Part shown: piece after piece, positions 1 to 11,698 of the stretch
Layout: each line of letters begins with the position of its first letter
Numbering within the stretch: position 1 is the stretch's first letter
Source: Jiella endophytica
GTDB taxonomy: Bacteria; Pseudomonadota; Alphaproteobacteria; Rhizobiales; Rhizobiaceae
Direction of reading: 5' to 3'
Assembly (NCBI RefSeq): GCF_004519335.1
Contig: NZ_SOZD01000004.1
Location: 310,001 to 374,000 of the forward strand
DNA: 64,000 nt
Program-made: the position numbers and the translations under genes
Notes under the pieces: generated by a model
Seen by the model: the letters and a program-made list of their open reading frames with translations, nothing else
The model's database searches: none
Told to the model about the DNA's origin: nothing

Positions 1-86
1 AGAGGATCGCCAGGCTTCAGATATCCGTGGACGATCCGGTCGGCGAGGGCCTCGCGGATCATGTCGACCTGGGTGCGTTTCTTCAC
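1..86 (-). CDS. GntR-family transcriptional regulator, N-terminal fragment
   Basis: The gene runs off the left edge of the window. The visible residues include REALADRIVHGYLKPGD, the opening of a GntR winged helix-turn-helix domain. It is the last visible gene of the minus-strand operon and starts about 30 nt after the allophanate hydrolase stop. I chose GTG at 86, with a GGAA-type ribosome site a few bases upstream; an in-frame TTG at 107 is the alternative. By position it is the likely ligand-responsive repressor of the operon, which is an inference. The effector domain (FCD or other) is not visible. Confidence 0.8.
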   Translation of the reverse strand, partial: MKKRTQVDMIREALADRIVHGYLKPGDP

Positions 87-115
87 GCCGATTCCATCAG
101 GATGCAATGAATGAT

Positions 116-1930
116 TCAGGCAGCACTGTTGCGCGATCCCAGGTAGTTTTTCCACCCTCCCGAGGACGTAATTTCATGCGCGCTTACGAGTGCGGCGGGC
201 TCGCAGATGAAGCCGGGCAGGCTCGTTCCATCGTCGAGGGTGAGCTTGCCGATGCCGAGCGGCGCCGGGATCGCGGCGACGAAGCCGGCAAATTCCACAG
301 CCGCCATCGACCAGATCTCGAGCGCGATGCCCGGGCCGGTAAAGCCGGGATCGCGAGAGAGGCCGGGCTTTTCGGGCGTCGTGTCGAGGGCATAGAAGCG
401 GTAGTCCGGCGCGGTCTTCGCTGCGCGGACGAGCCTTGCGCCCCGCTCGGTCAGCTCGTGGTTGAGCGCCATCCCCGTCAGATGCGCGCCGACGACGGCG
501 ATCTCGATCGCACCGCCTTCGGCCCCTGCCGCAACTGCCGGCGCGGCGAAGTCCGGCGGGCTGAAGTCGCGGGCGAGGCCGGCCCCGGTCGCCGCGGCGA
601 CATGCATCCGGTTGGCGAAGGCACCAAGGGCGTCATCGGTGTCCTGCGGCGCGACCAGCTGGACGCCGAAGGGAAGGCCCGCCGGCGTGAATCCGGCCGG
701 GACTGCGATCGCCGCGCAGCCGAAGAAATTGGCAAAGTTGGTGAAGCGGCCGAAGCGGGCGTTCAGCGCCAGCGGATCGGCACGCATCGCCTCGACGGTC
801 TGGATGTCCGGCGAGGTTGGCAAAAGCAGGCAGTCGACCTTCGCCCATTCGGCTTCCGCCTCGCGGCGCAGTTCCTCCAGCCGGTAGGCGCCGCGAAAGG
901 CATCGGCGGCGCTCATCGTCTGCGCGCCCTCGATGATCCTGCGGACGGTCGGATCGAGACTGTCCGGGCTGTCCTCGAAGAACGCCTCGATCGCCGCCAG
1001 CCGCTCGGCGACCCAGGGCCCCTCGTAGAGCAGGGCCGCCGCCTCGCGGAACGGCCGGTAGTCGAAGGGGACGATGGTCGCACCGAGCCCCTCGGCCCGG
1101 GCGATCGCCGCCCCATAGAGCGCGCGATAGGCCTCGTTGCCGTAGAATTCGCGCTCGCTCGCCTCGGGCACGCCGATCCGCAGCGCCTGCGGCAGACCAT
1201 GGTCGGCAAAACGGCGGGCATAGGCGTCAGCAGGCTCGAACCCCTCGGCGACCGCTCGCGCCGCGATCCCGTCGGCAACGCTCGGAGCGAAGACCGTGAC
1301 GACGTCGATCGAGCGGCAGGCGGGGACGACGCCGGTGGTCGGCACGCGGCCCGGCGACGGCTTGATGCCGACGATGTTGTTGAAGGCCGCAGGCACCCGC
1401 CCCGAGCCGGCGGTGTCGGTGCCCAGCGCAAAGGCGGCGATGCCGGCCGCGACGACCACGGCGGAGCCCGAACTCGATCCGCCTGACACATAGGCCTCAT
1501 CGAAGACGCAGCGCGGCGCGCCATAGGGCGAGCGGGTGCCGTTCAATCCGGTGGCGAACTGGTCGAGATTGGTCTTGCCGATCAGGATCGCGCCGGCCTC
1601 CTTCAGCCGCTGCACGGCGGTGGCGTCGGCCGTCGGCGTATAGGCATAGTCCGGGCAGGCCGCGGTGGTCGGCAGGCCGGCAACGTCGATATTGTCCTTG
1701 ACGGCGAAGGGCACGCCCCAGAGCGGCAGCGAGTTCGGCTCCGGCGCGCGATCGAGCAGCGCCCGTGCCTCGGCAAGGATCGCCTCTTTGGGCCGTTTCA
1801 GGATGAAGGCGGCCGGATCGCAGCTCTCCATGCGCAGCGCCACCGCTTCCATCACCTCGGCCGGGCTGGTGCCCGAGGCATAGAGCGCCCGCATGCTGGC
1901 AAAATCGAGGATCGTCGGCAGGTCGGTCAT
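116..1930 (-). CDS. atzF: Allophanate hydrolase
   Basis: Cytoplasmic enzyme that hydrolyses allophanate (urea-1-carboxylate) to ammonia and carbon dioxide, the last step of cyanuric acid, biuret and urea-carboxylase pathways. The protein is 604 aa, close to the usual ~600. An amidase-signature domain fills roughly residues 1-460, with catalytic Lys78, cis-Ser152 in SGGSSSGS and Ser176. The remaining ~130 residues match the allophanate hydrolase C-terminal domain, which has no amidase motif. The start at 1930 is set by GGGGAGGGG just upstream; an in-frame ATG at 1951 is less likely. It follows a cupin gene across a repeat-bearing gap and precedes the GntR gene. Confidence 0.93.
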   Translation of the reverse strand: MTDLPTILDFASMRALYASGTSPAEVMEAVALRMESCDPAAFILKRPKEAILAEARALLDRAPEPNSLPLWGVPFAVKDNIDVAGLPTTAACPDYAYTPTADATAVQRLKEAGAILIGKTNLDQFATGLNGTRSPYGAPRCVFDEAYVSGGSSSGSAVVVAAGIAAFALGTDTAGSGRVPAAFNNIVGIKPSPGRVPTTGVVPACRSIDVVTVFAPSVADGIAARAVAEGFEPADAYARRFADHGLPQALRIGVPEASEREFYGNEAYRALYGAAIARAEGLGATIVPFDYRPFREAAALLYEGPWVAERLAAIEAFFEDSPDSLDPTVRRIIEGAQTMSAADAFRGAYRLEELRREAEAEWAKVDCLLLPTSPDIQTVEAMRADPLALNARFGRFTNFANFFGCAAIAVPAGFTPAGLPFGVQLVAPQDTDDALGAFANRMHVAAATGAGLARDFSPPDFAAPAVAAGAEGGAIEIAVVGAHLTGMALNHELTERGARLVRAAKTAPDYRFYALDTTPEKPGLSRDPGFTGPGIALEIWSMAAVEFAGFVAAIPAPLGIGKLTLDDGTSLPGFICEPAALVSAHEITSSGGWKNYLGSRNSAA

Positions 1931-2063
1931 CAGTCCCCTCCCCGGGGGCATGTTGTCGTCGTCTATGCTGCGGCGCCCGCTGGACCGCTCATCTCGAGGG
2001 GCTGGCGGAGCGAGCCTCGAAGGGCCAGAGGTCGGCGGCCTCTCTGCTGCGGCCGGCGCCAGG

Positions 2064-2240
2064 CGCCCCCCTCTGGGCTACCGCCCATCTCCCCCTCAAG
2101 GGGGGAGATCGAAGCTGCATCCGGGTCTCGCCGATCCTCAGACGCCGTTTGTTGCGCAAAGGTCTGCAAAAGGCCGCCGAGTTCAAAGCTGCCGATCTCC
2201 CCCCTTGAGGGGGAGATGCCCGGCAGGGCAGAGGGGGGCA
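2064..2240. repeat. GC-rich inverted-repeat element, copy 1
   Basis: This element fills the 396-nt gap between atzF and the cupin gene. Two ~48-nt arms (2064-2111 and 2193-2240) are near reverse complements and share the core ATCTCCCCCTCAAGGGGG. The arms surround an ~80-nt centre. A second copy is at 7058-7236. Each arm also contains its own small palindrome (CCCCCTCAAGGGGG), so the RNA could fold into strong stems. It looks like a non-autonomous intergenic repeat; I see no transposase and no coding potential. Confidence 0.85.
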
Positions 2241-2326
2241 AGCCAGCGCCTTAGTGCCGATCAGGCGATCGGTCCCGGCCGTATCGGCTCGGCAGCCAGG
2301 GCGCGGCAAAGACCAGGCCAGACACC

Positions 2327-2686
2327 TCATTCCCCCGCCTCCAGGATCCGCACCGGCGCAGCCCAGGTGATCAGGACGAGGCAGCCTTCCTCCGACCACA
2401 CCCGATGGCGCGATCCGGCAGCATTGAGGACGACGTCGCCGGCCCGGTAGAGGCCATCGTCGTCGGCTTGCGAGCCGGAAAGGACGACGATCGTCTCGAG
2501 GCCGGTGTGTTCGTGCATCGGCACCGAAGCGCCCGGAGCGTAGCGCAGCAGCGCCGTCTCGCCCGGGCCGGTCTCCCCCTGACCGGTCCGGCCGGACAGC
2601 CTGGCGATCTCGACGCCATCGCGAAACGGCTCGAAGGTCGCAGCGGCGAGGTCGAGACCGAGGAGGCCCGGGAAGACGGCCGGCAT
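2327..2686 (-). CDS. Cupin-domain protein (ChrR-like)
   Basis: A 119-aa single-domain cupin. The metal-binding pattern is visible as PMHEHTGLETIVVLSG followed by RAGDVVLNAAGSRHRV, giving two His, one Glu and a later His. The ATG shares one base with the stop of the upstream cysteine hydrolase (TGATG), so translation is probably coupled. Its role in the operon is unknown; small cupins of this kind act as metal-bound sensors or accessory enzymes. I assign the fold confidently but not the function. Confidence 0.8.
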   Translation of the reverse strand: MPAVFPGLLGLDLAAATFEPFRDGVEIARLSGRTGQGETGPGETALLRYAPGASVPMHEHTGLETIVVLSGSQADDDGLYRAGDVVLNAAGSRHRVWSEEGCLVLITWAAPVRILEAGE

Positions 2687-3513
2687 CAGACGGCACTTCC
2701 CAAACAGAGCGGCGGCGCGGCAAGCGGCTCAGCCGGCCGAAGGCCTTGGTCGGGGCCCGCACCGCCTGGAGATCCACCCGCGGCTGTGGCCACAGGGGCA
2801 GCGCTGCCCACAGCTCCTGTCTCAAGCGTCGTGGCCGTGGCCGCCATGCCAAGCTCGAGGCCGGCGAGGATCGCGTCCACCGGCGCTGCCCAGCCGACGA
2901 TCGCCCCTTGCGCGACGATCATCTCGATGGCGGCTCGCTTGAAGGCGTCGAAATAGCTCTCCGTCGCGTCTTCCGCCAAAAGGCATTCGAAGCCGCGATC
3001 GTTCGCTTCGCGCATCGTCGTCTGGACGCAGACTTCCGTGGTGACACCCGCAAAGACCAGCTGGGTGATGCCGAGCGCTTCCAGATGCTCCGACAGCCCG
3101 GTGGCGTAGAAGGCGCCCTTGCCCGGCTTGTCGATCACCAGTTCACCGTCCGCAGGAAACAGCTCCGGCACGATCTCGGCACCCGGCTCGCCGGCGATCA
3201 GGATGCGGCCCATCGGCCCATCGTCGCCGATTCTGAGGCCCGGCGCACCGCGCAGGCGCTTGGCCGGCGGGCAGTCGGACAGGTCGGGGCGATGGCATTC
3301 GCGGGTGTGGATCACCGGCCGGCCGGCGGCCCTGAAGCCCTCGATCAGCCGGCGCGTCGCCGGCACGATCGCCTGGAGCCGCGAGACGTCGTTGCCGAGA
3401 CTCTCGCCAAAACCGCCCGGCTCGAGGAAATCCCGCTGCATGTCGATGACGATCAAGGCGACACGGGCGGGAGAAAGGTCGAAGGGAAACGGGCTCGCGG
3501 AAACATTCGCCAT
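2686..3513 (-). CDS. Isochorismatase-like cysteine hydrolase, candidate triuret hydrolase
   Basis: A 275-aa cytoplasmic cysteine hydrolase of the isochorismatase-like fold. The triad is visible as Asp24 (VIDMQRDF), Lys129 ([10 protein letters not shown]) and Cys162 ([15 protein letters not shown]). It is a clear paralogue of the biuret hydrolase three genes upstream, and keeps [12 protein letters not shown] and the IDKPGKG segment. In characterised clusters a second such paralogue beside biuret hydrolase is triuret hydrolase (TrtA), so that is my working guess; ureidomalonase or a carboxybiuret-acting enzyme are alternatives. The last ~45 residues are low complexity and unlike biuret hydrolase. 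The start at 3513 overlaps the ATPase stop by one base. Confidence 0.85.
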
Positions 3514-5117
3514 CAGTGCGGCCCTCCCGCTGACGCCGCCGCCGAGTGGCCGGCCATATGCGCGCCGATCTCGCGGGTGTCGGCCTTCTCGCCGCCCTGG
3601 CATTCGAAGACGATGCGGCCCTCGAACATCACCGCGATGCGATCCGACAGGGCGACCACCTCGTCGAGATCCTCCGAGACGAGGAGCACCGCGGCGCCGC
3701 GATTGCGCGCCGCAAGGATCTGCGCCCGGATATCGGCGACGGCGCCGAAATCGAGGCCGAAACAGGGATTGGCCGCGACCAGAAGGTCGGTCTCGCCGGA
3801 GAGCTCGCGGGCAAGCACCGCCCGCTGAACATTGCCGCCGGACAGCGTCTCGATCCTGGCCGAGGGCGACTGGGTCTTCACCGAATAGGCGGCAATCAGC
3901 CGCTCGGCCTCGCGGCGCATCGAGCCCTTGTCGACCAGCCGGCGACGCTTGCCGTCAGCGTCGCGGTCGAAGGAGCGGAAGGCGAGGTTTTCGGCAACGC
4001 TCATCTTGCCGACGCAGGCATTGCGCAGCGGCTCTTCCGGCAGGCAGCGCACCTTCATCGCCTGCGCCGCCGCGCGGCTGGCGTCATAGGCCTTGCCCTT
4101 GACGCGGATCTCGCCGCCGTCCGGCCGCGCCTGGCCGGAGATCAGCTCGACCAGCCGTGTCTGGCCGTTGCCGGAAATGCCGGCGATGCCGACGATCTCG
4201 CCGGGACGGACCTCCAGCCGGTCGATCTGGACGGAACCACGGGTGCCGGCATCGCCGGAGACGAGCTTCTCGACCTGCAACACCGGCTCGCCGGGCTCGC
4301 TGCGGGCGACGCGCTCCGGCACGGCGGCGAGCTCGCGCTCGCCGATCATCATCTCCGCCATCTCCGCGGTCGAGAGCGCAGCGACCCTGCCCTCGCCGAC
4401 CTTGGCGCCCTTCCGCAACACGGTGACCCGGTCGCAGAAGGCCGTCACCTCGGCGAATTTGTGGGTGATCAGGAGCACCGCCATGCCGCTCTCGGAGGCG
4501 AGCGAGCGCAGGAAGCCGAGCACCTCGCGCGCCTCGTCCGGCGTCAGCACCGAGGTCGGCTCGTCGAGGACGAGGACGCGCGACCCGAGATAGAGCTGCT
4601 TGAGGATCTCGGTCTTCTGGCGCTCGCCGGAGGACAACCTGTCCACCTTGGTGTCGAGCGGCACCTTCAGGGGCATCGTCTGAAGGAAAGCTTCGAGGGA
4701 CCGCCGCTCGGCGCGCCAGTCGATATAGCCGGGCACGTCGGCGCGCGACATCACCAGATTTTCGAGGACGGTCATCGACGGCACCAGGGTGAAATGCTGG
4801 TAGACCATGCCGATGCCGAGGCGTCTGGCGTCCCTTGGGCTGGCGATCGGCTGCTCGCGGCCGTCGAGGATCACCCCGCCCTCGTCCGGATGGTAGTAGC
4901 CGAGCATGCATTTGACGAGCGTCGACTTGCCGGCGCCGTTCTCGCCGAGCAGCGCGTGGAACTCGCCGGCATTGAGCGCGATCGACACGTGGTCGAGCGC
5001 GGTGAAGGAGCCGAAATGCTTGGTAAGGCCCACGGCTTCGAGCAGCGGCCGGTCGCGGCGGGCGGCAGGTTCGGCCAGAGCGGCTTCGATCGCTTCCGGT
5101 TCGGCGAGTGCGGACAT
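3513..5117 (-). CDS. ABC transporter ATP-binding protein, BMP/nucleoside type (two ATPase domains)
   Basis: A 534-aa fused ATPase with two nucleotide-binding domains, of the NupA/YufO (simple sugar and nucleoside) type. Domain 1 (about 25-260) has Walker [10 protein letters not shown], signature LSSGERQK and Walker [10 protein letters not shown]. Domain 2 (about 275-515) has a degenerate Walker A, GISGNGQT, with Gln for Lys, which is usual in this family. It would energise the permeases encoded at 8334-9257 and 9272-10375 with the binding protein at 10383-11495. The ATPase gene lies between enzyme genes, not beside its partners, with TGATG overlaps on both sides. Confidence 0.92.
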
Positions 5118-6226
5118 CAGCTCTCTCCTTTCCTACGGTCGACGACGAGAGCGACCGGGCCGCCGCCGTCAGGCCCCTGATGCTCGGCGCCGCCGGAGAC
5201 GAAGAGCTCGGTGAGGCCGGTGAGCCCGGCGAGCGCGCCGCCGGTGAAGGCGCGCGCATGGCGCGTCGAGGCGATGTCGCTGTCGTCGAGCATGGCGTGG
5301 CGCGAGCCGCGCAGCCGACCCGAAGAGCCTGCCTCGGCCTTGGCGAGAAGCGCGACGAGCCGGGAGCGCTCTTCCGATGCAAGCTGGCCGCGGGCCTCGA
5401 GGCCGAGCCGCTTCAGCGCGGCGCGCACCGGCTCGATGTCGATGCCGTCCGCCATCACGGCGTGATCGATGGCGAGCGGCCCGGACCAGGATTGGCTCAT
5501 CCCGAGGACGACGATCTCGTGATTTTGCAGCTCGACGCCGGCGGAGGTGCTGGCCCGGCCAGAATAAAGGCCGAAGTCGCTGCCGATCACCGCGTCGTTC
5601 AGGGCATGGGCCTCGATCTCGCCCAGCGCCAGAGCAACGCCGAGCGCCGAGGCGCCGCGTGACAGGCCCATCGACTTCAGCGTGTCGCGGGTGGCGGTGT
5701 CGGCGCCCCTTGCACCGGCTGCGGCGATGCGCTCGGCGGTGAGAAGCGGGCATTTGATCTGGACGAAATGAACGTCGGCAGGATCGTCGATGCCTGCATC
5801 GTGCATCGCCTTGGCGACGCCCTCCGCGACCAGCCAGACTTGGCCCATGCGGCCGAGATGCTCCGGCGCAAGGTCGGCCGTATGGGCGACACCGATGGCG
5901 AGCGCCGGGCCCTTCGCCACATCCGCTTCCGCCTCGCCCCGTTCGAGGACGAGGATGTGCGGCGACAGCGCACCCTCGGTGCCGCCGGACATCACCATGG
6001 CGATCCTCGCCACCGCCGCGGGCGGCAGGCGGGCGGCCAGCGCGGCGCTGAGCGCCGAAACGGCGAAGGCGCGGGTGAAATCGTTGACGCAGCCATTGCC
6101 CTCGGTCTTGCCAAGGATCGCGACGATGCCGGCCGGATCGATCCGCCCCGCCGCGATCGCCTCGTCGAGGCCGGAGACGTCGTCCGGCCCGGCCGTCGCG
6201 ATCCGATGGACCCGCGCCTGTCGCAT
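5117..6226 (-). CDS. atzD: Cyanuric acid amidohydrolase / barbiturase family ring-opening hydrolase
   Basis: A 369-aa ring-opening amidohydrolase. Family motifs include LGKTEGNGCVNDF, VMSGGTEG, VQIKCPLL and VSGGAEHQGPDGGG. The triplicated Ser-Lys layout is visible as Lys40/Ser80, Lys158/Ser226-228 and Lys296/Ser344. It would hydrolyse cyanuric acid to carboxybiuret, which decarboxylates to biuret. Barbiturase shares the fold, so substrate is inferred from the adjacent biuret and allophanate hydrolases. The start at 6226 overlaps the biuret hydrolase stop by one base; an upstream in-frame start at 6361 lies inside that gene and is rejected. Confidence 0.88.
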   Translation of the reverse strand: MRQARVHRIATAGPDDVSGLDEAIAAGRIDPAGIVAILGKTEGNGCVNDFTRAFAVSALSAALAARLPPAAVARIAMVMSGGTEGALSPHILVLERGEAEADVAKGPALAIGVAHTADLAPEHLGRMGQVWLVAEGVAKAMHDAGIDDPADVHFVQIKCPLLTAERIAAAGARGADTATRDTLKSMGLSRGASALGVALALGEIEAHALNDAVIGSDFGLYSGRASTSAGVELQNHEIVVLGMSQSWSGPLAIDHAVMADGIDIEPVRAALKRLGLEARGQLASEERSRLVALLAKAEAGSSGRLRGSRHAMLDDSDIASTRHARAFTGGALAGLTGLTELFVSGGAEHQGPDGGGPVALVVDRRKGES

Positions 6227-6951
6227 CAGCCGATCGCCTCGATGAAGGCGTCGCTGGTCGCCACCGCGCCGAAGACGCCGCCCTGCATCTTCACCATGTC
6301 CAGGGCAGCGAGATGGTTTTCCCGCTTGGTTGCGCCGGTGCAGTCCGACAGGACGAGGCACTCGTAGCCGCGGTCGTTGGCATCACGCATCGTCGTGTGG
6401 ACGCAGACATCGGTGGTGACGCCGGTCAGGACGATGTTGCGGATGCGTTTGGTCTGCAGCACGAGGTCGAAGTCGGTGGCGAGAAACGAGCCCTTGCCCG
6501 GCTTGTCGATGATCGGCTCGCCGGCGATCGGCGAAAGCTCCGGAATGATCTCCCAGCCGGGCTCGCCGCGGATGAGAATGCGCCCGCACGGGCCCTGATC
6601 GCCGATGCCTGCGCCAATCCGCTGCGAACGCCAGCGCTTGTTGGCCGGAAGGTCGGAGAGGTCCGGCTTGTGGCCCTCGCGGGTGTGGATGACGGTGAAA
6701 TCCTTTTCGCGGGCGAGTTTCAGGAGCCTGGCGATCGGCTCGATCGGGGCACGCGTCAGGGAGAGGTCGTAGCCCATCGAATCGACGTAGCCGCCGGGCG
6801 CGCAGAAATCGACCTGCATGTCGATAACGACGATGGCGGTGTTTTCGGGCCTCAGATCACCGTCGAACGGCCAGGGATAGGGATCGGAGTCGACCGTCCG
6901 CCCGCCCGGGACCATGGCGGCATCGATTCGCTCGTCGAGGGTGTCGGTCAT
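6226..6951 (-). CDS. biuH: Biuret hydrolase (biuret amidohydrolase)
   Basis: A 241-aa cysteine hydrolase converting biuret to allophanate and ammonia. The triad is Asp44, Lys150 and Cys183. Long stretches match what I know of the Rhizobium leguminosarum enzyme, such as DADPYPWP-like [24 protein letters not shown] and [10 protein letters not shown]. The start at 6951 is chosen for AAGGA 9 nt upstream and for homology; an upstream ATG at 7011 adds a tail with no similarity. The 354-nt gap before it holds repeat copy 2. It is translationally coupled to the ring-opening hydrolase. Confidence 0.92.
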
Positions 6952-7057
6952 CGGCGGTGTCCTTGTCGGTTCATCGCGCTTCGGCCGGGAGGCCGGCGAT
7001 TGGCGGAGCAAACCATGCGGGCTGGCCGCTAGCCCCGCTTACGTCCGCGCCCTTTCG

Positions 7058-7236
7058 CGCCCCCCTCTGGGCTGCAGCCCATCTCCCCCTCAAGGGGGGA
7101 GATCGATCCCGCTCACACGCCTGCAGCCACTCGGTAAGGGCTAAGACTGCAAGACGGGCGGCCGAAGAGGAGCAACCCCCGACGCTGCTGATCTCCCCCT
7201 TTGAGGGGGAGATGTCCGGCAGGACAGAGGGGGGTA
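7058..7236. repeat. GC-rich inverted-repeat element, copy 2
   Basis: Same element as at 2064-2240. Its arms are 7058-7105 and 7188-7236, with the core ATCTCCCCCTCAAGGGGGGA in the left arm and an internal centre that differs from copy 1. It occupies the gap between the formamidase and biuH genes. The two copies lie in the only two gaps longer than 100 nt inside the operon. Confidence 0.85.
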
Positions 7237-7305
7237 TGCCCTGCCCTGCAACGGCAAAAAGAGGCCTTGCCACTCCGCCGACAGCAAAGGGAAAGAACGC
7301 GCCCA

Positions 7306-8322
7306 TCACTCCGCCGCATCCTTGAACCGCTCCCCGAACATCCGCGTCGGGGCCGGGAAGCCACAGGAGGTGCCGTCGGTGACCTTGACCTCGTCTTCCC
7401 ATGGCACCCGGTACTTGCCGGCGACCATGTCGTGCATGAACGTATAGGGGCAGTCCTGCGCGCCGCCCTTCACCGCGACATAGCCGCGATGGCCGAGCTG
7501 GTAGATGTTGTTTTCGACGCCCCAGCCGGCTCTTGCCTCGCGCACGAGATCCGGCCGCACCTCGGCGGTGATGATCTCGTCCACCCGGCCGGTCTCGCCA
7601 TGGGCGATCACCGTGCCGTCGAAGTCGACGATCATCCCCTCGCCCATGGAATCGAACGACCCGTCGGAGCCGCACATGCAGACATTGGCGGTGATCATCA
7701 GGTTCTGGAACGAGTTCGCCTGGTTGGTGAACCGCCAGGAGTTGCGGATCGGCGCGGTGTAGCCGGCGGTGCGCAGCATGATCTCGGCGCCCTTATAGGC
7801 GCATTCGCGGGCCATCTCCGGGAACATGCCGTCATGGCAGATGATCAGCGCCAGCTTCGAGCCGTTCGGCCCGTCGATGACCGGGATGCCCTTGTCGCCC
7901 GGCTCCCAGGGCTCGACCGGCACCCAGGGGTGGAGCTTGCGGTAGTTGAGGACGATCTCGCCCTTGTCGTCGATGACGAGCCCGGTGTTGTAGGGCATGC
8001 CGCCGGGGTTCAGCTCCATGAGCGAGAAGCAGCCCCAGATCGCATTGTCGACGCAGGCTTGTCTGAAAGCTGCGACCTCCGGCCCGTCGACCCGGCACAT
8101 GATCTCCGGATTGGTGTCCATCGACAGGCCGTGCAGCGAATATTCCGGGAAGACCACGAGGTCCATCGTGCCGAGATTGCGCCGCGCCTTGCCGACCATC
8201 CAGACGATCTTCTCGGTCTGCGCCGCGAGGTCGGCTTTCGTGACGACGTTCGGCAGCTGCAGCTGGACGCAGCCGATGACGACGCCGTTTGCGGATTTGT
8301 TGAGACCGCCGAGACCATTCAT
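7306..8322 (-). CDS. amiF: Formamidase, nitrilase-superfamily
   Basis: A 338-aa carbon-nitrogen hydrolase with catalytic Glu60 (VVFPEYS), Lys129 (NYRKLHPW) and Cys162 (IICHDGMFPE). The C-terminal part (GWGVENNIYQLGHRGYVA, AAGKYRVPWED) matches AmiF formamidase closely and not aliphatic amidases in general. It would release ammonia and formate from formamide, or act on another small amide. The start at 8322 follows AAGGAG by 7 nt. Its place in a cyanuric acid/biuret operon is unusual and suggests either extra amide substrates or an unrecognised intermediate. Confidence 0.87.
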   Translation of the reverse strand: MNGLGGLNKSANGVVIGCVQLQLPNVVTKADLAAQTEKIVWMVGKARRNLGTMDLVVFPEYSLHGLSMDTNPEIMCRVDGPEVAAFRQACVDNAIWGCFSLMELNPGGMPYNTGLVIDDKGEIVLNYRKLHPWVPVEPWEPGDKGIPVIDGPNGSKLALIICHDGMFPEMARECAYKGAEIMLRTAGYTAPIRNSWRFTNQANSFQNLMITANVCMCGSDGSFDSMGEGMIVDFDGTVIAHGETGRVDEIITAEVRPDLVREARAGWGVENNIYQLGHRGYVAVKGGAQDCPYTFMHDMVAGKYRVPWEDEVKVTDGTSCGFPAPTRMFGERFKDAAE

Positions 8323-8333
8323 GGCGAGGCTCC

Positions 8334-9257
8334 TTATCTGGTGATCGAGAGTTCGCGCGGCGCCCCTTCGAGCGCCTTGCGCGGCGAGGATGTGACGAAG
8401 AGGATGACGAGCGTCAGGATGTAAGGCGCGGCGTAGAAGAGATAGTAGCCGGAAGTGACGCCGACCGACTGCAGCGCCGGGCCGAGCGCCCCCGCCCCGC
8501 CGAAGATCAGCGCCGCGCCGAGACAGGCGAGCGGGTTCCACCTGGCGAAGATGACCAGCGCGACGGCGATCAGCCCCTGGCCGGAGGAGATGTGCTCGTT
8601 CCACGAGCCCGGATAGTAGAGCGACAGATAGGCCCCCGCGACGCCGGCCATGAAGCCGCCGAAGGCGGTGGCGGCGACCCGCACGGGGATGATCGGATAG
8701 CCCATCGCTCTCGCGGCATCGGCGCTGTCGCCGACCATTCGGAGCACCAGCCCGATGCGCGTGCGCTTGAAGACGAAGAGCAGAAGGACGGCGACGACGA
8801 CGCCGATGAGGAACGGCGGCGAGACCTCGAGCGCCGCCCGCACCTGCGGCACGCTCGACCAGGCCCCGAGCGACAGGCCGGGAAGCATCGGCGCGGCCGG
8901 CTGGATCAGCGGCTTGCCGAAGAAGAAGGCAAGCCCCGAGCCGAGGATCATCAGCGCGATGCCGACCGCGATGTCGTTGACCTTCGGCAGCGAGCAGAGG
9001 GCGGCATGAAGGAGGCCGAAGAGAAGCCCCGCGATCCCGGCGGCGAGCACCCCGAGCCAGGGCGAGCCGGTGAGATAGGAGCCGCCATAGCCGGCCATGG
9101 CGCCGAAGACGAGGGTGCCCTCGAGGCCGAGATTGATGCGGCCCGATTTTTCAGTCACGCATTCGCCGAGGCTGACGAAGAGAAACGGCGTCGAGACCCG
9201 CAGCATTCCCCCGAGGACGGCGATCGGGACTGCCCAGAGGCCGAGATCGGAATTCAT
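8334..9257 (-). CDS. ABC transporter permease, BMP/nucleoside type (second subunit)
   Basis: A 307-aa integral inner-membrane permease of the BPD_transp_2 family with about 8-10 hydrophobic segments. Family landmarks are LGECVTEKSGRINLGLEGT near the N-terminus and GLIAVALVIFARWNPL near the C-terminus, matching the NupC/YufQ-like subunit of nucleoside ABC transporters. It pairs with the permease just upstream (14-nt gap). Likely cargo is cyanuric acid, biuret, triuret or a nucleobase-like ring compound, inferred from neighbours. Confidence 0.9.
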   Translation of the reverse strand: MNSDLGLWAVPIAVLGGMLRVSTPFLFVSLGECVTEKSGRINLGLEGTLVFGAMAGYGGSYLTGSPWLGVLAAGIAGLLFGLLHAALCSLPKVNDIAVGIALMILGSGLAFFFGKPLIQPAAPMLPGLSLGAWSSVPQVRAALEVSPPFLIGVVVAVLLLFVFKRTRIGLVLRMVGDSADAARAMGYPIIPVRVAATAFGGFMAGVAGAYLSLYYPGSWNEHISSGQGLIAVALVIFARWNPLACLGAALIFGGAGALGPALQSVGVTSGYYLFYAAPYILTLVILFVTSSPRKALEGAPRELSITR

Positions 9258-9271
9258 CTTGCGCCTCCCTT

Positions 9272-10375
9272 TCAGCCTTTGGCGTTGCGGCTCGGCAGAA
9301 GCCGGCCGGACAGGGTTTCCGAGACGAGGATCGCGACGAAGAGGATCCCCTGCAGGACGAGGACCGTGGCGTCCGGAAGATCCATCCGCCGCTGGATGAA
9401 GCCGCCGGCCGCGTCGATCCCGCCGATGAGCAGCGCCATCGGAATGATGGCGACCGGGTTCTGCCGCGCGAGGAAGGCGATGAGGATGCCGGTATAGCCG
9501 TAGCCCGCCGCCAGCGAGGCGTTGGCCGAACCCTGGACGGCGGCCACCTGGATCATGCCGGCGAGCCCTGCCGCGGCGCCCGCAGCGGCGGTGAAGGCGA
9601 GGATCAGCCGGCCGACCGGCAGCCCCTGCACCGCCGCGGCGCGGGCATTGCCGCCGGCGATCCGGGCGGAAAAGCCGAAGGTGGTGCGCGACAGGACGAA
9701 GCCGGCGAGAAGGCAGGCGAGGATGCCGACGGCAAAGCCCCAATGGACGTCCATGCCGGGGATCTCGCCGACCCGCATGTCCGGGCCGAGCGGCACGGTG
9801 GACGGCTTGTTGAGGCTGGCCGGATCCTTCAGCGGGCCCTCGACGAAATGATGCATCAGCGCAATGGCGATATAGGCCATCAGAAGGCTCGAGATCGTCT
9901 CGTTGATGCCGCGATAGTGGCGCATGGCGCCGACGAGGCCGATCCAGGTCCCGCCGGCGCAGATGCCGGCGAGCGCCATCAGGCCGATCGCCACCCAGCC
10001 CGGGGCAAAGCCGAAGAGCGGGCCGACCACGGCGGCCGCTAGACCGCCGAGGACGAAGGCGCCCTCGCCGCCGATGACGACGAGGCCGAGCTGCGCCGGC
10101 AGCGCGACGCAGAGCGCCGTCAAAAGCAGCGGCGCCGCGCGCGTCATGGTGTTCTGCAGCGAGAACCACGTCCCGAAGCCACCCCGGTAGACGAGGTAGT
10201 AGAACTCCTCGGGGCTCTTGCCGTTCAGCGCGATGAACAGGCCGAAGAGCAGGAGCCCGACGAGGAGCGCGGTCACCGGGATGAGCACGCCTTCGAGCCG
10301 CCGCCGCGCCGCCTCGCCAAGAAGCGGACGGGCGGCAGCACCGGCGAAGGACGAGCCTTGCGTGATCTCGCTCAT
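9272..10375 (-). CDS. ABC transporter permease, BMP/nucleoside type (first subunit)
   Basis: A 367-aa permease of the YufP/NupB type. A short cytoplasmic N-terminus is followed by a first membrane segment at about 32-50. The family stretch GLVVIGGEGAFVLGG and the conserved RHYRGINETISSLLMAYIA loop are present. It lies 7 nt after the binding-protein gene and is followed by the second permease. Together they form the heterodimeric channel. Confidence 0.9.
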   Translation of the reverse strand: MSEITQGSSFAGAAARPLLGEAARRRLEGVLIPVTALLVGLLLFGLFIALNGKSPEEFYYLVYRGGFGTWFSLQNTMTRAAPLLLTALCVALPAQLGLVVIGGEGAFVLGGLAAAVVGPLFGFAPGWVAIGLMALAGICAGGTWIGLVGAMRHYRGINETISSLLMAYIAIALMHHFVEGPLKDPASLNKPSTVPLGPDMRVGEIPGMDVHWGFAVGILACLLAGFVLSRTTFGFSARIAGGNARAAAVQGLPVGRLILAFTAAAGAAAGLAGMIQVAAVQGSANASLAAGYGYTGILIAFLARQNPVAIIPMALLIGGIDAAGGFIQRRMDLPDATVLVLQGILFVAILVSETLSGRLLPSRNAKG

Positions 10376-10382
10376 TTCAGCC

Positions 10383-11495
10383 TCACGACGTCGAGCCGAT
10401 GACGCCCTCGATCAGATAGTCCATCTTCTCAAGTTCGATGGCGGTCTCGGGATATTCCTTGCCGGCGGCGACGACCTCGTTGCCCTTGTTGTCCTTCAGC
10501 GGACCCTTGATGACGGCGAAGCCGCCCTTCATCACCTCGGCTTTGACGCTGTCGGCCTGCTTCCTCGCCTCCTCGGTGACCGCCGGCCCGTAGTCGGAGA
10601 TCTTGACGAAGTCCTCGGCGAGGCCGCCGCGCACGAAGTTCGGCAGCTCCTCGCCGGCGAGCGCCTTCTCGGCGAACATCTTGTAGACCGTCTCCCAATG
10701 CCATTCGGCACCGGTGAGGTACTTCTCGGGAGCGAGCGGCGCCTGGCTGGTGTGGTAGCCGGTGACATAGGCGCCGCGGCCGGCGGCGGTCTGGACGAAG
10801 ACCTTGGGGCTGTCGACGTGGCAGGTGAGAACATCGGCGCCCTGGTCGACCAGCGCGTTGACGGCCTCTGCCTCCTTGACCGGCATCGCCCAGTCGCCGG
10901 TGAAGATCACCTGGGTCTGGATCGACGGATCGACCGACTTGGCGCCCAGCGTATAGGCGTTGATGTTCATCAGGACCTGCGGGATCGGCTTGGCGGCGAC
11001 GAAGCCGAGCTTCTTCGACTTGGTCATGTGGCCGGCGATGATGCCGCAGATGTACTGGGCCGTGCCGATATAGCCGAAATAGGAGCCGGCGTTCTTCGGG
11101 TCCTTGTCCGTCCACAGGCCGCCGCAATGGCGGAACTGGACGTCCGGATAGTTCTTCGCCGTGTCGACGACGAAGGGGTTGTAGTAGCCGAAGGAGGTCG
11201 GGAAGAGCAGTTCGGCGCCGTCGAGCTGGATCATCGATTCCATGGTTTTGACGACCGCGTCGCTCTCGGCGACGTTCTCTTCCTCGACGACCGTCAGTCC
11301 TTCCATGTCCTTGATTGCCGCGGCGCCTTCGGCATGGGCCTGATTGTAGCCGTAGTCGTCACGCGGGCCGACATAGATGAAGCCGGCGGTCAGCGACGCG
11401 GCGAAGGCCGGCCGCGAACGCATGACGAGCGGCGCCGCACCGAGCGCAGCACCGGCCATCAGGAAACGGCGGCGGTTGAGCGGAAACATGGTCAT
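10383..11495 (-). CDS. BMP-family ABC transporter substrate-binding protein, Tat signal
   Basis: A 370-aa periplasmic binding protein of the BMP/PnrA type. The N-terminus NRRRFLMAGAALG is a twin-arginine signal, with a probable cleavage after AFA near residue 32. The mature part starts SLTAGFIYVGPRDDYGYNQAH, a BMP-type first strand. It is the first gene of the operon. Start candidates are ATG 11495 and ATG 11489; GGGGAA lies upstream of both. Tat export is uncommon for such receptors and implies folding before export. Confidence 0.9.
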   Translation of the reverse strand: MTMFPLNRRRFLMAGAALGAAPLVMRSRPAFAASLTAGFIYVGPRDDYGYNQAHAEGAAAIKDMEGLTVVEEENVAESDAVVKTMESMIQLDGAELLFPTSFGYYNPFVVDTAKNYPDVQFRHCGGLWTDKDPKNAGSYFGYIGTAQYICGIIAGHMTKSKKLGFVAAKPIPQVLMNINAYTLGAKSVDPSIQTQVIFTGDWAMPVKEAEAVNALVDQGADVLTCHVDSPKVFVQTAAGRGAYVTGYHTSQAPLAPEKYLTGAEWHWETVYKMFAEKALAGEELPNFVRGGLAEDFVKISDYGPAVTEEARKQADSVKAEVMKGGFAVIKGPLKDNKGNEVVAAGKEYPETAIELEKMDYLIEGVIGSTS

Positions 11496-11585: not shown

Positions 11586-11595
11586 TTGCATGCAA
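11586..11595. promoter_or_regulatory. Candidate operator TTGCATGCAA (proximal)
   Basis: A perfect 10-bp palindrome about 90 bp upstream of the binding-protein start. It shares the core of the longer palindrome at 11683-11698, and their centres are exactly 100 bp apart. Palindromes with a TTG...CAA frame are typical of GntR-family operators, and a GntR gene ends this operon. Direct binding is inferred. Confidence 0.5.
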
Positions 11596-11682: not shown

Positions 11683-11698
11683 AAATTGCATGCAATTT
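11683..11698. promoter_or_regulatory. Candidate operator AAATTGCATGCAATTT (distal)
   Basis: A perfect 16-bp palindrome 188 bp upstream of the operon start. It lies in a locally AT-rich stretch (11640-11700) that differs from the GC-rich surroundings. With the proximal site it forms a pair suited to cooperative or looped binding by a dimeric GntR regulator. I cannot place the -10 and -35 boxes with confidence. Confidence 0.55.

Follow-up and report, generated by a model that had tools for sequence, protein, structure and literature searches.

Which compounds does an eleven-gene cluster in the genome of Jiella endophytica serve, and what are its formamidase and cupin, whose genes have no explained role in an otherwise known pathway, doing there? 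The cluster lies at one end of the 64-kb stretch analyzed here (the window; contig NZ_SOZD01000004.1, positions 310,001 to 374,000). Open reading frames and family matches place bmpA, two permease genes, amiF, biuH, atzD, an ABC (ATP-binding cassette) ATPase gene, trtA, a cupin gene, atzF, and gntR, in this order, on the minus strand, where they run from 11495 to 116 and beyond the window edge. Gene names are family-based assignments. Ten of the eleven genes are whole in the window; gntR contributes its first 86 bases, and its remainder comes from the next stretch of the contig (L002). A preliminary description had listed eleven same-strand genes of these families in this order, and family searches recovered every one of them. 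We predict that the cluster is an operon with which the cell scavenges nitrogen from cyanuric acid, triuret, and biuret, and put the probability of this reading at about 0.85. That the operon is of a known kind with a conserved layout is well supported; the open interest lies in the jobs of the formamidase and the cupin.

In the route that we propose, an exported BMP protein and an ABC transporter would import one or more flat ureides (cyanuric acid, triuret, biuret). AtzD would convert cyanuric acid to carboxybiuret, and TrtA would deaminate triuret to the same compound; in both cases the chemistry is taken from the literature on relatives and family membership was tested here. Carboxybiuret would then yield biuret and CO2, spontaneously or possibly with the assistance of the cupin, after which BiuH would convert biuret to allophanate and AtzF allophanate to NH3 and CO2. 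A half-life of roughly 20 min is reported for carboxybiuret when it decays unaided (excerpts of PMC7948467). AmiF is a genuine member of the module, a putative formamidase by family, and the GntR/FCD protein would probably control the operon via paired TTGCATGCAA sites upstream of bmpA. The flow from cyanuric acid through carboxybiuret, biuret, and allophanate to ammonia had been put forward in the preliminary description, and curated models together with active-site residues support it.

Enzymes of the predicted route

Four enzymes, AmiF, BiuH, AtzD, and AtzF, pass the cut-offs of curated models. The ring-opening enzyme scores 568.8 bits against the NCBIfam cyanuric acid hydrolase equivalog (cut-off 360), and the solved structure nearest to it is 4nq3 (459.5 bits), a cyanuric acid hydrolase from Azorhizobium. 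All nine residues checked (K40, D49, S79, K156, R188, S226, E230, K285, and S333; set taken from excerpts of PMC4051656) are kept, the three Ser-Lys dyads among them. A barbiturase in an operon for pyrimidine breakdown would be an alternative, given that the two enzymes belong to one superfamily and that RutB, which acts in pyrimidine use, is a relative of BiuH. However, the RutB score of the biuH product is 112 bits, far below the cut-off of 378, and position 188, a Gln in the barbiturase subgroup according to the same excerpts (PMC4051656), is an Arg in AtzD. The ranking of PDB chains is not decisive on this point: the label of 5hwe, a chain named barbiturase that gives 256.2 bits, is unverified, and it was not used as a test. 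On the equivalog score and Arg188 we rejected the barbiturase reading, which we regard as highly improbable. AtzD is thus supported as a predicted cyanuric acid hydrolase.

BiuH and AtzF likewise came through the curated checks, with 410.6 bits against NCBIfam BiurAmidohydBiuH (cut-off 370) and 755.6 bits against TIGR02713 (cut-off 511.05), respectively; AtzF also carries an AH_C domain (PF21986, 154.2 bits). The second cysteine hydrolase is closer to TrtA (6xix, 295.8 bits) than to BiuH (6azo, 204.3 bits) among solved structures. Six residues are reported to separate TrtA from BiuH (excerpts of PMC7948467), and at all six (F35, N41, A134, E160, Y187, and I205) the protein is of the TrtA kind. 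Its triad (D24, K129, C162) and Q202 are intact, 134 of 218 aligned residues are identical to TrtA, and 13/13 checked TrtA positions are kept; a C-terminal tail of ~55 residues extends beyond the aligned part. We conclude that this hydrolase is TrtA-like and a predicted triuret hydrolase, so triuret use, at first suggested only as possible, now appears probable.

A known kind of operon with a conserved order

A scan of genomes for AtzD gave 563 confirmed loci, of which 80 were kept, and the eleven proteins were compared with them by tblastn; these 80 and 20 more make up a set of 100 loci. The full eleven-gene set is present in at least five Aurantimonadaceae loci (L004–L008) from Jiella, Fulvimarina, and Aurantimonas. 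Plasmid pRL10 of Rhizobium leguminosarum (johnstonii) 3841, the source of the characterized BiuH, carries nine of the genes in the same order (bmpA-perm-perm-amiF-biuH-atzD-ATPase-trtA-cupin), with proteins 56–81% identical; its GntR gene, however, is divergent and 41% identical, and atzF was not found in the 21 kb of this cluster examined. Since the order is kept in other genera, the arrangement is not due to chance.

Related systems share parts of this set. The Herbaspirillum triuret pathway (TrtA-TrtB-BiuH-AtzF) has the same TrtA, BiuH, and AtzF chemistry but has a published decarboxylase, TrtB (excerpts of PMC7948467). Ammonia-oxidizer clusters of the form biuH-trtA-trtB-atzF-bmpA-nupABC have the same transporter type and hydrolases, with gntR in the drawn clusters (excerpts of PMC12625717); the words formamidase and cupin are absent from the main text of that report. 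The atzDGEHF and atzRSTUVW genes of Pseudomonas ADP have in common with the window AtzD, AtzF, and an AtzT-related binding protein. In contrast to that system, the window operon is without AtzE, AtzG, and AtzH, its route runs through biuret, and it has a GntR protein in place of AtzR, which is of the LysR type. Two plasmid records hold modules without atzD, with a gene annotated as cupin in Agrobacterium RAC06 and a gene annotated as formamidase in Sulfitobacter pontiacus BL28. The preliminary description had considered that the transporter, cupin, and formamidase make this version unusual; this did not hold, as the same parts occur in Rhizobium 3841 and in L004–L008, and the transporter in the ammonia-oxidizer clusters described in excerpts of PMC12625717.

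Within the genus, the AtzD gene is present in 6/10 genomes (own included) and minD in 10/10. For five proteins encoded beside the operon in the window, minD included, no match was found in the 19 kb operon loci of five genus-mates; hence the chromosomal place of the operon varies. Together, the data argue for a single module, transportable and regulated, that serves the use of biuret, triuret, and cyanuric acid; it is of relevance to impurities in fertilizers, cyanuric acid in pool water, and the products of uric acid oxidation.

AtzD was also seen in a second context, in L010, L011, and L013–L021 (67–71% identical), where tblastn gave no match for biuH, trtA, or bmpA, some of these loci being short. 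LysR-like and amidohydrolase-like open reading frames recur there, as judged by eye.

The formamidase accompanies the biuret hydrolase

AmiF scores 578.4 bits against the NCBIfam formamidase equivalog (cut-off 406). To place it, we searched 199 genomes of the order: amiF (E <= 1e-80) was found in 26 and biuH (E <= 1e-85) in 40, the genome studied here being in both groups. biuH was present in 25/26 amiF genomes compared with 15/173 others (Fisher p 2.4e-20), and, per genus, in 17/17 with amiF compared with 12/83 without (p 7.8e-12); these p values overstate independence, as the genomes are related. The two genes lie within 10 kb of each other in 23/26 amiF genomes. The exceptions are a genome with no biuH at the threshold (G576), one with the genes on different contigs (G095), and one with the genes 2.8 Mb apart (G446). 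A second sample, of 398 genomes from the phylum and sharing some members with the first, had amiF in 15, and every one of these was among the 36 with a TrtA/BiuH-type hydrolase (E <= 1e-60). The relation is one-sided, amiF being absent from 16/41 modules (one on a truncated contig) and from 15/40 biuH genomes. What is new here is that amiF nearly always accompanies biuH in the samples searched; AmiF, a predicted enzyme, is a genuine member of the module and travels with the biuret pathway. A tie of amiF to atzD was also considered and dropped: order-wide, amiF-biuH loci are mostly without adjacent atzD (14/18). Among cupin modules, amiF is present in 16/18 with atzD and in 1/7 without it (L051, truncated, excluded).

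A RTAGYTAP segment with an Arg two residues on (RTAGYTAPI-like) is invariant in 52/52 AmiF proteins; the Helicobacter and Bacillus formamidases have RISGYSTQ in its place. Seven of the 52 come from loci without an adjacent biuH, trtA, or permease gene (bmpA is nearby in two of the seven), and the AmiF tree does not separate them. Since these seven carry the segment too, it marks a subfamily and not module membership alone. A formamidase subfamily that is near-confined to biuret-degrading genomes in the samples searched points to an unrecognized substrate feeding the pathway.

A cupin kept directly behind trtA

The small operon gene codes for 119 residues with a cupin domain only (PF12973 Cupin_7, 62.3 bits), and the NTF2-type domain of AtzH-like/DUF3225 proteins (PF11533) was not found in it. 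The 3-His-1-Glu metal set is the catalytic cupin motif, and here it is complete (H58, H60, E64, and H94 invariant in 20/20). The predicted structure has the cupin fold (predicted local distance difference test score, pLDDT, 85.6). In fold and in sequence the nearest proteins are ChrR and generic cupins (TIGR02451, 43 bits); no decarboxylase by name was among the matches listed in the fold search (best 50).

In the 100 loci, 26 biuH/trtA modules have the cupin gene and 15 have an AtzH-like gene, and none has both. Three modules have neither (L009, L012, and L023), and four are partial or truncated (L030, L048, L064, and L081). In all 26 cupin loci the cupin gene follows trtA with no other module gene between them. 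The AtzH-like gene takes this position in four modules (L024, L025, L128, and L129); in seven (L022, L035, L038, L052, L061, L068, and L079) it comes after atzE, on the downstream side of trtA, and in the remaining four (L070, L125, L126, and L130) it lies elsewhere. All five modules examined from outside the class (L125, L126, and L128–L130) have the AtzH-like gene and no cupin. atzE accompanies the AtzH-like gene in 10/15 modules and the cupin in 0/26.

A tree of BiuH, ATPase, TrtA, and permease 2 sequences (42 rows, quick method; L051, with no biuH on its contig, L078, a near copy of L077, and the rearranged L070 were left out) placed 25/25 cupin rows in one clade with a Shimodaira-Hasegawa-like approximate likelihood ratio test (SH-aLRT) value of 99. 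Repeated swapping of cupin and AtzH was therefore rejected. Because the tree has one state change, the mutual exclusion counts as one event and not as repeated support; the cupin state has persisted from then on in Rhizobiaceae, Aurantimonadaceae, Paracoccaceae, and Geminicoccaceae. That the cupin has stayed immediately after trtA hints at a step that has yet to be assigned, and we consider the protein a candidate carboxybiuret decarboxylase.

The transporter and its binding protein

The ATPase, permeases, and binding protein match putative B6 transporter models of NCBIfam below their cut-offs, so only the general transporter type is clear. The solved relatives nearest to BmpA are AtzT (6pi5, 206.8 bits), the binding protein of the atrazine plasmid, and a Brucella protein with adenine modelled in it (3s99, 172.4 bits); this and the AtzT pocket (Y45, S97, F98, E165, W194, N218, and N220) are described in excerpts of PMC6834077. 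We compared this pocket in 30 module BmpA proteins, those of the window and of 29/31 extracted loci. The aromatic sandwich (Y/W and W) and S97 and F98 are kept in 30/30, and the polar residues are changed in 30/30 (E165 to Q/S/T, N218 to H, and N220 to D), so that module BmpA departs from the AtzT-type purine/s-triazine pocket. The pocket fits a flat ligand other than guanine, possibly one of the ureides named above. BmpA starts with a twin-arginine stretch (NRRRFLMAG; R8 and R9 invariant in 30/30), as also reported for AtzT, and its predicted structure has a pLDDT of 89.7.

A candidate operator upstream of bmpA

TTGCATGCAA is present in two copies in the window, 100 bp apart and upstream of bmpA, with 0.027 expected. 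The 100 loci contain 13 copies of it (2.04 expected), eight of them as pairs upstream of bmpA in L004–L007. Jiella flava (L008) has only a 2-mismatch variant upstream of bmpA and no exact site. Two Aureimonas loci (L060 and L083) each have one site ~35 bases ahead of bmpA, and L135 has one ~55 bases ahead of a trtA-like gene; in Chelatococcus (L070) the palindrome is upstream of bmpA and also between divergent gntR and amiF. The exact palindrome was not found in the Rhizobium loci L062, L066, L074, L076–L078, and L082, whose GntR proteins are 40–43% identical. A loose search (12-mer, 2 mismatches) gave 2 sites in the window with 1.43 expected, and hence only the exact form is informative. The paired TTGCATGCAA is a candidate operator, to which the GntR protein may bind.

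The full ATTGCATGCAAT is found at two places genome-wide, the operon and C11:197780 (L225 8781). The second copy lies where a gene for a family-5 solute-binding protein starts, ~4.5 kb from the one PF11533 AtzH-like gene found elsewhere in the genome (C11), in a stretch with amidohydrolase, iron-sulphur, and molybdopterin-type dehydrogenase genes.

Weighing the alternatives

Several points weigh against the proposed route. AtzT binds guanine at 0.11 µM and cyanuric acid at 340 µM (excerpts of PMC6834077), a ~3000-fold preference that makes the ligand of the transporter uncertain. The trtA product gives 250.1 bits against the BiuH equivalog, below the cut-off of 370, and a TrtA model is absent among its profile matches, so its assignment rests on residues and on the nearest structure. 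Some AtzH modules may use a carboxybiuret-AtzE route; as atzE goes with AtzH and never with the cupin, the exclusion of cupin and AtzH alone is no proof that they serve the same step. The AtzH-like gene on C11 weakens the need for a replacement of AtzH by the cupin. Finally, extra promoters could sit in the gaps of 350–400 bp within the operon.

The two unexplained genes also admit other readings. amiF could simply serve to scavenge formamide, having been picked up along with other nitrogen genes, a view that gains from the passing formamidase score and the many modules without amiF. Its close association with biuH, both in presence and in distance, and the invariant RTAGYTAP segment, found also in the seven proteins from loci without these neighbors, speak for AmiF as a module member, and we lean somewhat against the scavenger. 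Similarly, the cupin may have a sensory or regulatory role, like that of the cupins in ChrR anti-sigma factors, and not be a pathway enzyme: ChrR cupins are its best matches, and the distribution of atzE suggests that cupin and AtzH may serve different routes. The lone domain, the full metal set, and the constant place after trtA speak against this, and a sensor seems to us less likely than not.

The operon may also have had another original purpose, namely the use of triuret and biuret (uric acid oxidation products and fertilizer impurities), with atzD inserted later between biuH and the ATPase gene. Seven cupin modules (L119–L124 and L127) have the same core order and no atzD, and beside biuH in the amiF loci the examined flank holds the ATPase gene without atzD in 14/18 cases and atzD in 4/18. 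Such an origin is compatible with cyanuric acid use here; we give it even odds. N-formylbiuret arises from 5-azauracil or oxonate. A broader and, in our view, unlikely proposal is that the module salvages oxidized nucleobase debris: triuret, cyanuric acid, and N-formyl ureides (formylbiuret or formylurea, deformylated by AmiF) would converge on biuret, and the cupin would represent a new, non-homologous kind of carboxybiuret decarboxylase, which arrived once and spread with the module. If so, the AmiF subfamily would not be a plain formamidase. Among the open-licence literature matches listed, none linked a formamidase or formylbiuret to biuret, triuret, or azauracil-type compounds. The nitrogen-scavenging operon, with the formamidase as a member and the cupin possibly assisting, is the reading that we retain, and the analysis brings both genes to a testable form.

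Layout of the operon

Coordinates of the operon genes and associated elements in the window
Feature	Position	Strand	Description and basis
bmpA	10383..11495	-	BMP/PnrA-like periplasmic binding protein, twin-arginine start; Pfam Bmp 134.1 bits
ABC permease 1	9272..10375	-	BPD_transp_2
ABC permease 2	8334..9257	-	BPD_transp_2
amiF	7306..8322	-	AmiF-type formamidase; NCBIfam formamidase 578.4 bits; PDB 5g3o, 2dyu
Palindromic intergenic repeat	7077..7217		between amiF and biuH; sequence repeat
biuH	6226..6951	-	predicted biuret hydrolase; NCBIfam BiurAmidohydBiuH 410.6 bits
atzD	5117..6226	-	predicted cyanuric acid hydrolase; NCBIfam CyanAcHdlAtzD 568.8 bits; 4nq3 459.5 bits
ABC ATPase gene	3513..5117	-	two Pfam ABC_tran stretches
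trtA	2686..3513	-	triuret-hydrolase-type cysteine hydrolase; TrtA 6xix 295.8 bits
Cupin_7 protein gene	2327..2686	-	Pfam Cupin_7 62.3 bits
Palindromic repeat, second copy	2083..2221		between cupin gene and atzF; sequence repeat
atzF	116..1930	-	predicted allophanate hydrolase, amidase and AH_C domains; TIGR02713 755.6 bits; PF21986 154.2 bits
gntR (GntR and FCD)	-570..86 (window part 1..86)	-	PF00392 and PF07729 on whole gene
TTGCATGCAA palindrome, proximal	11586..11595		candidate operator; motif
TTGCATGCAA palindrome, distal	11686..11695		candidate operator, 100 bp from proximal; motif

Four junctions (biuH/atzD, atzD/ATPase, ATPase/trtA, and trtA/cupin) are TGATG overlaps, which suits coupled translation. 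The two larger gaps, ~354 bp between amiF and biuH and ~396 bp between cupin gene and atzF, each hold a copy of the palindromic element, the core pattern of which has 11 exact copies genome-wide; the stretch 7000–7310 folds more stably than its shuffles (z -4.42). No tRNA and no Rfam match at gathering level was found in the 64-kb window. Downstream of gntR, on the same strand, lies a resistance-nodulation-division (RND) efflux pair of membrane-fusion and AcrB-type genes (L002 8112–12731).

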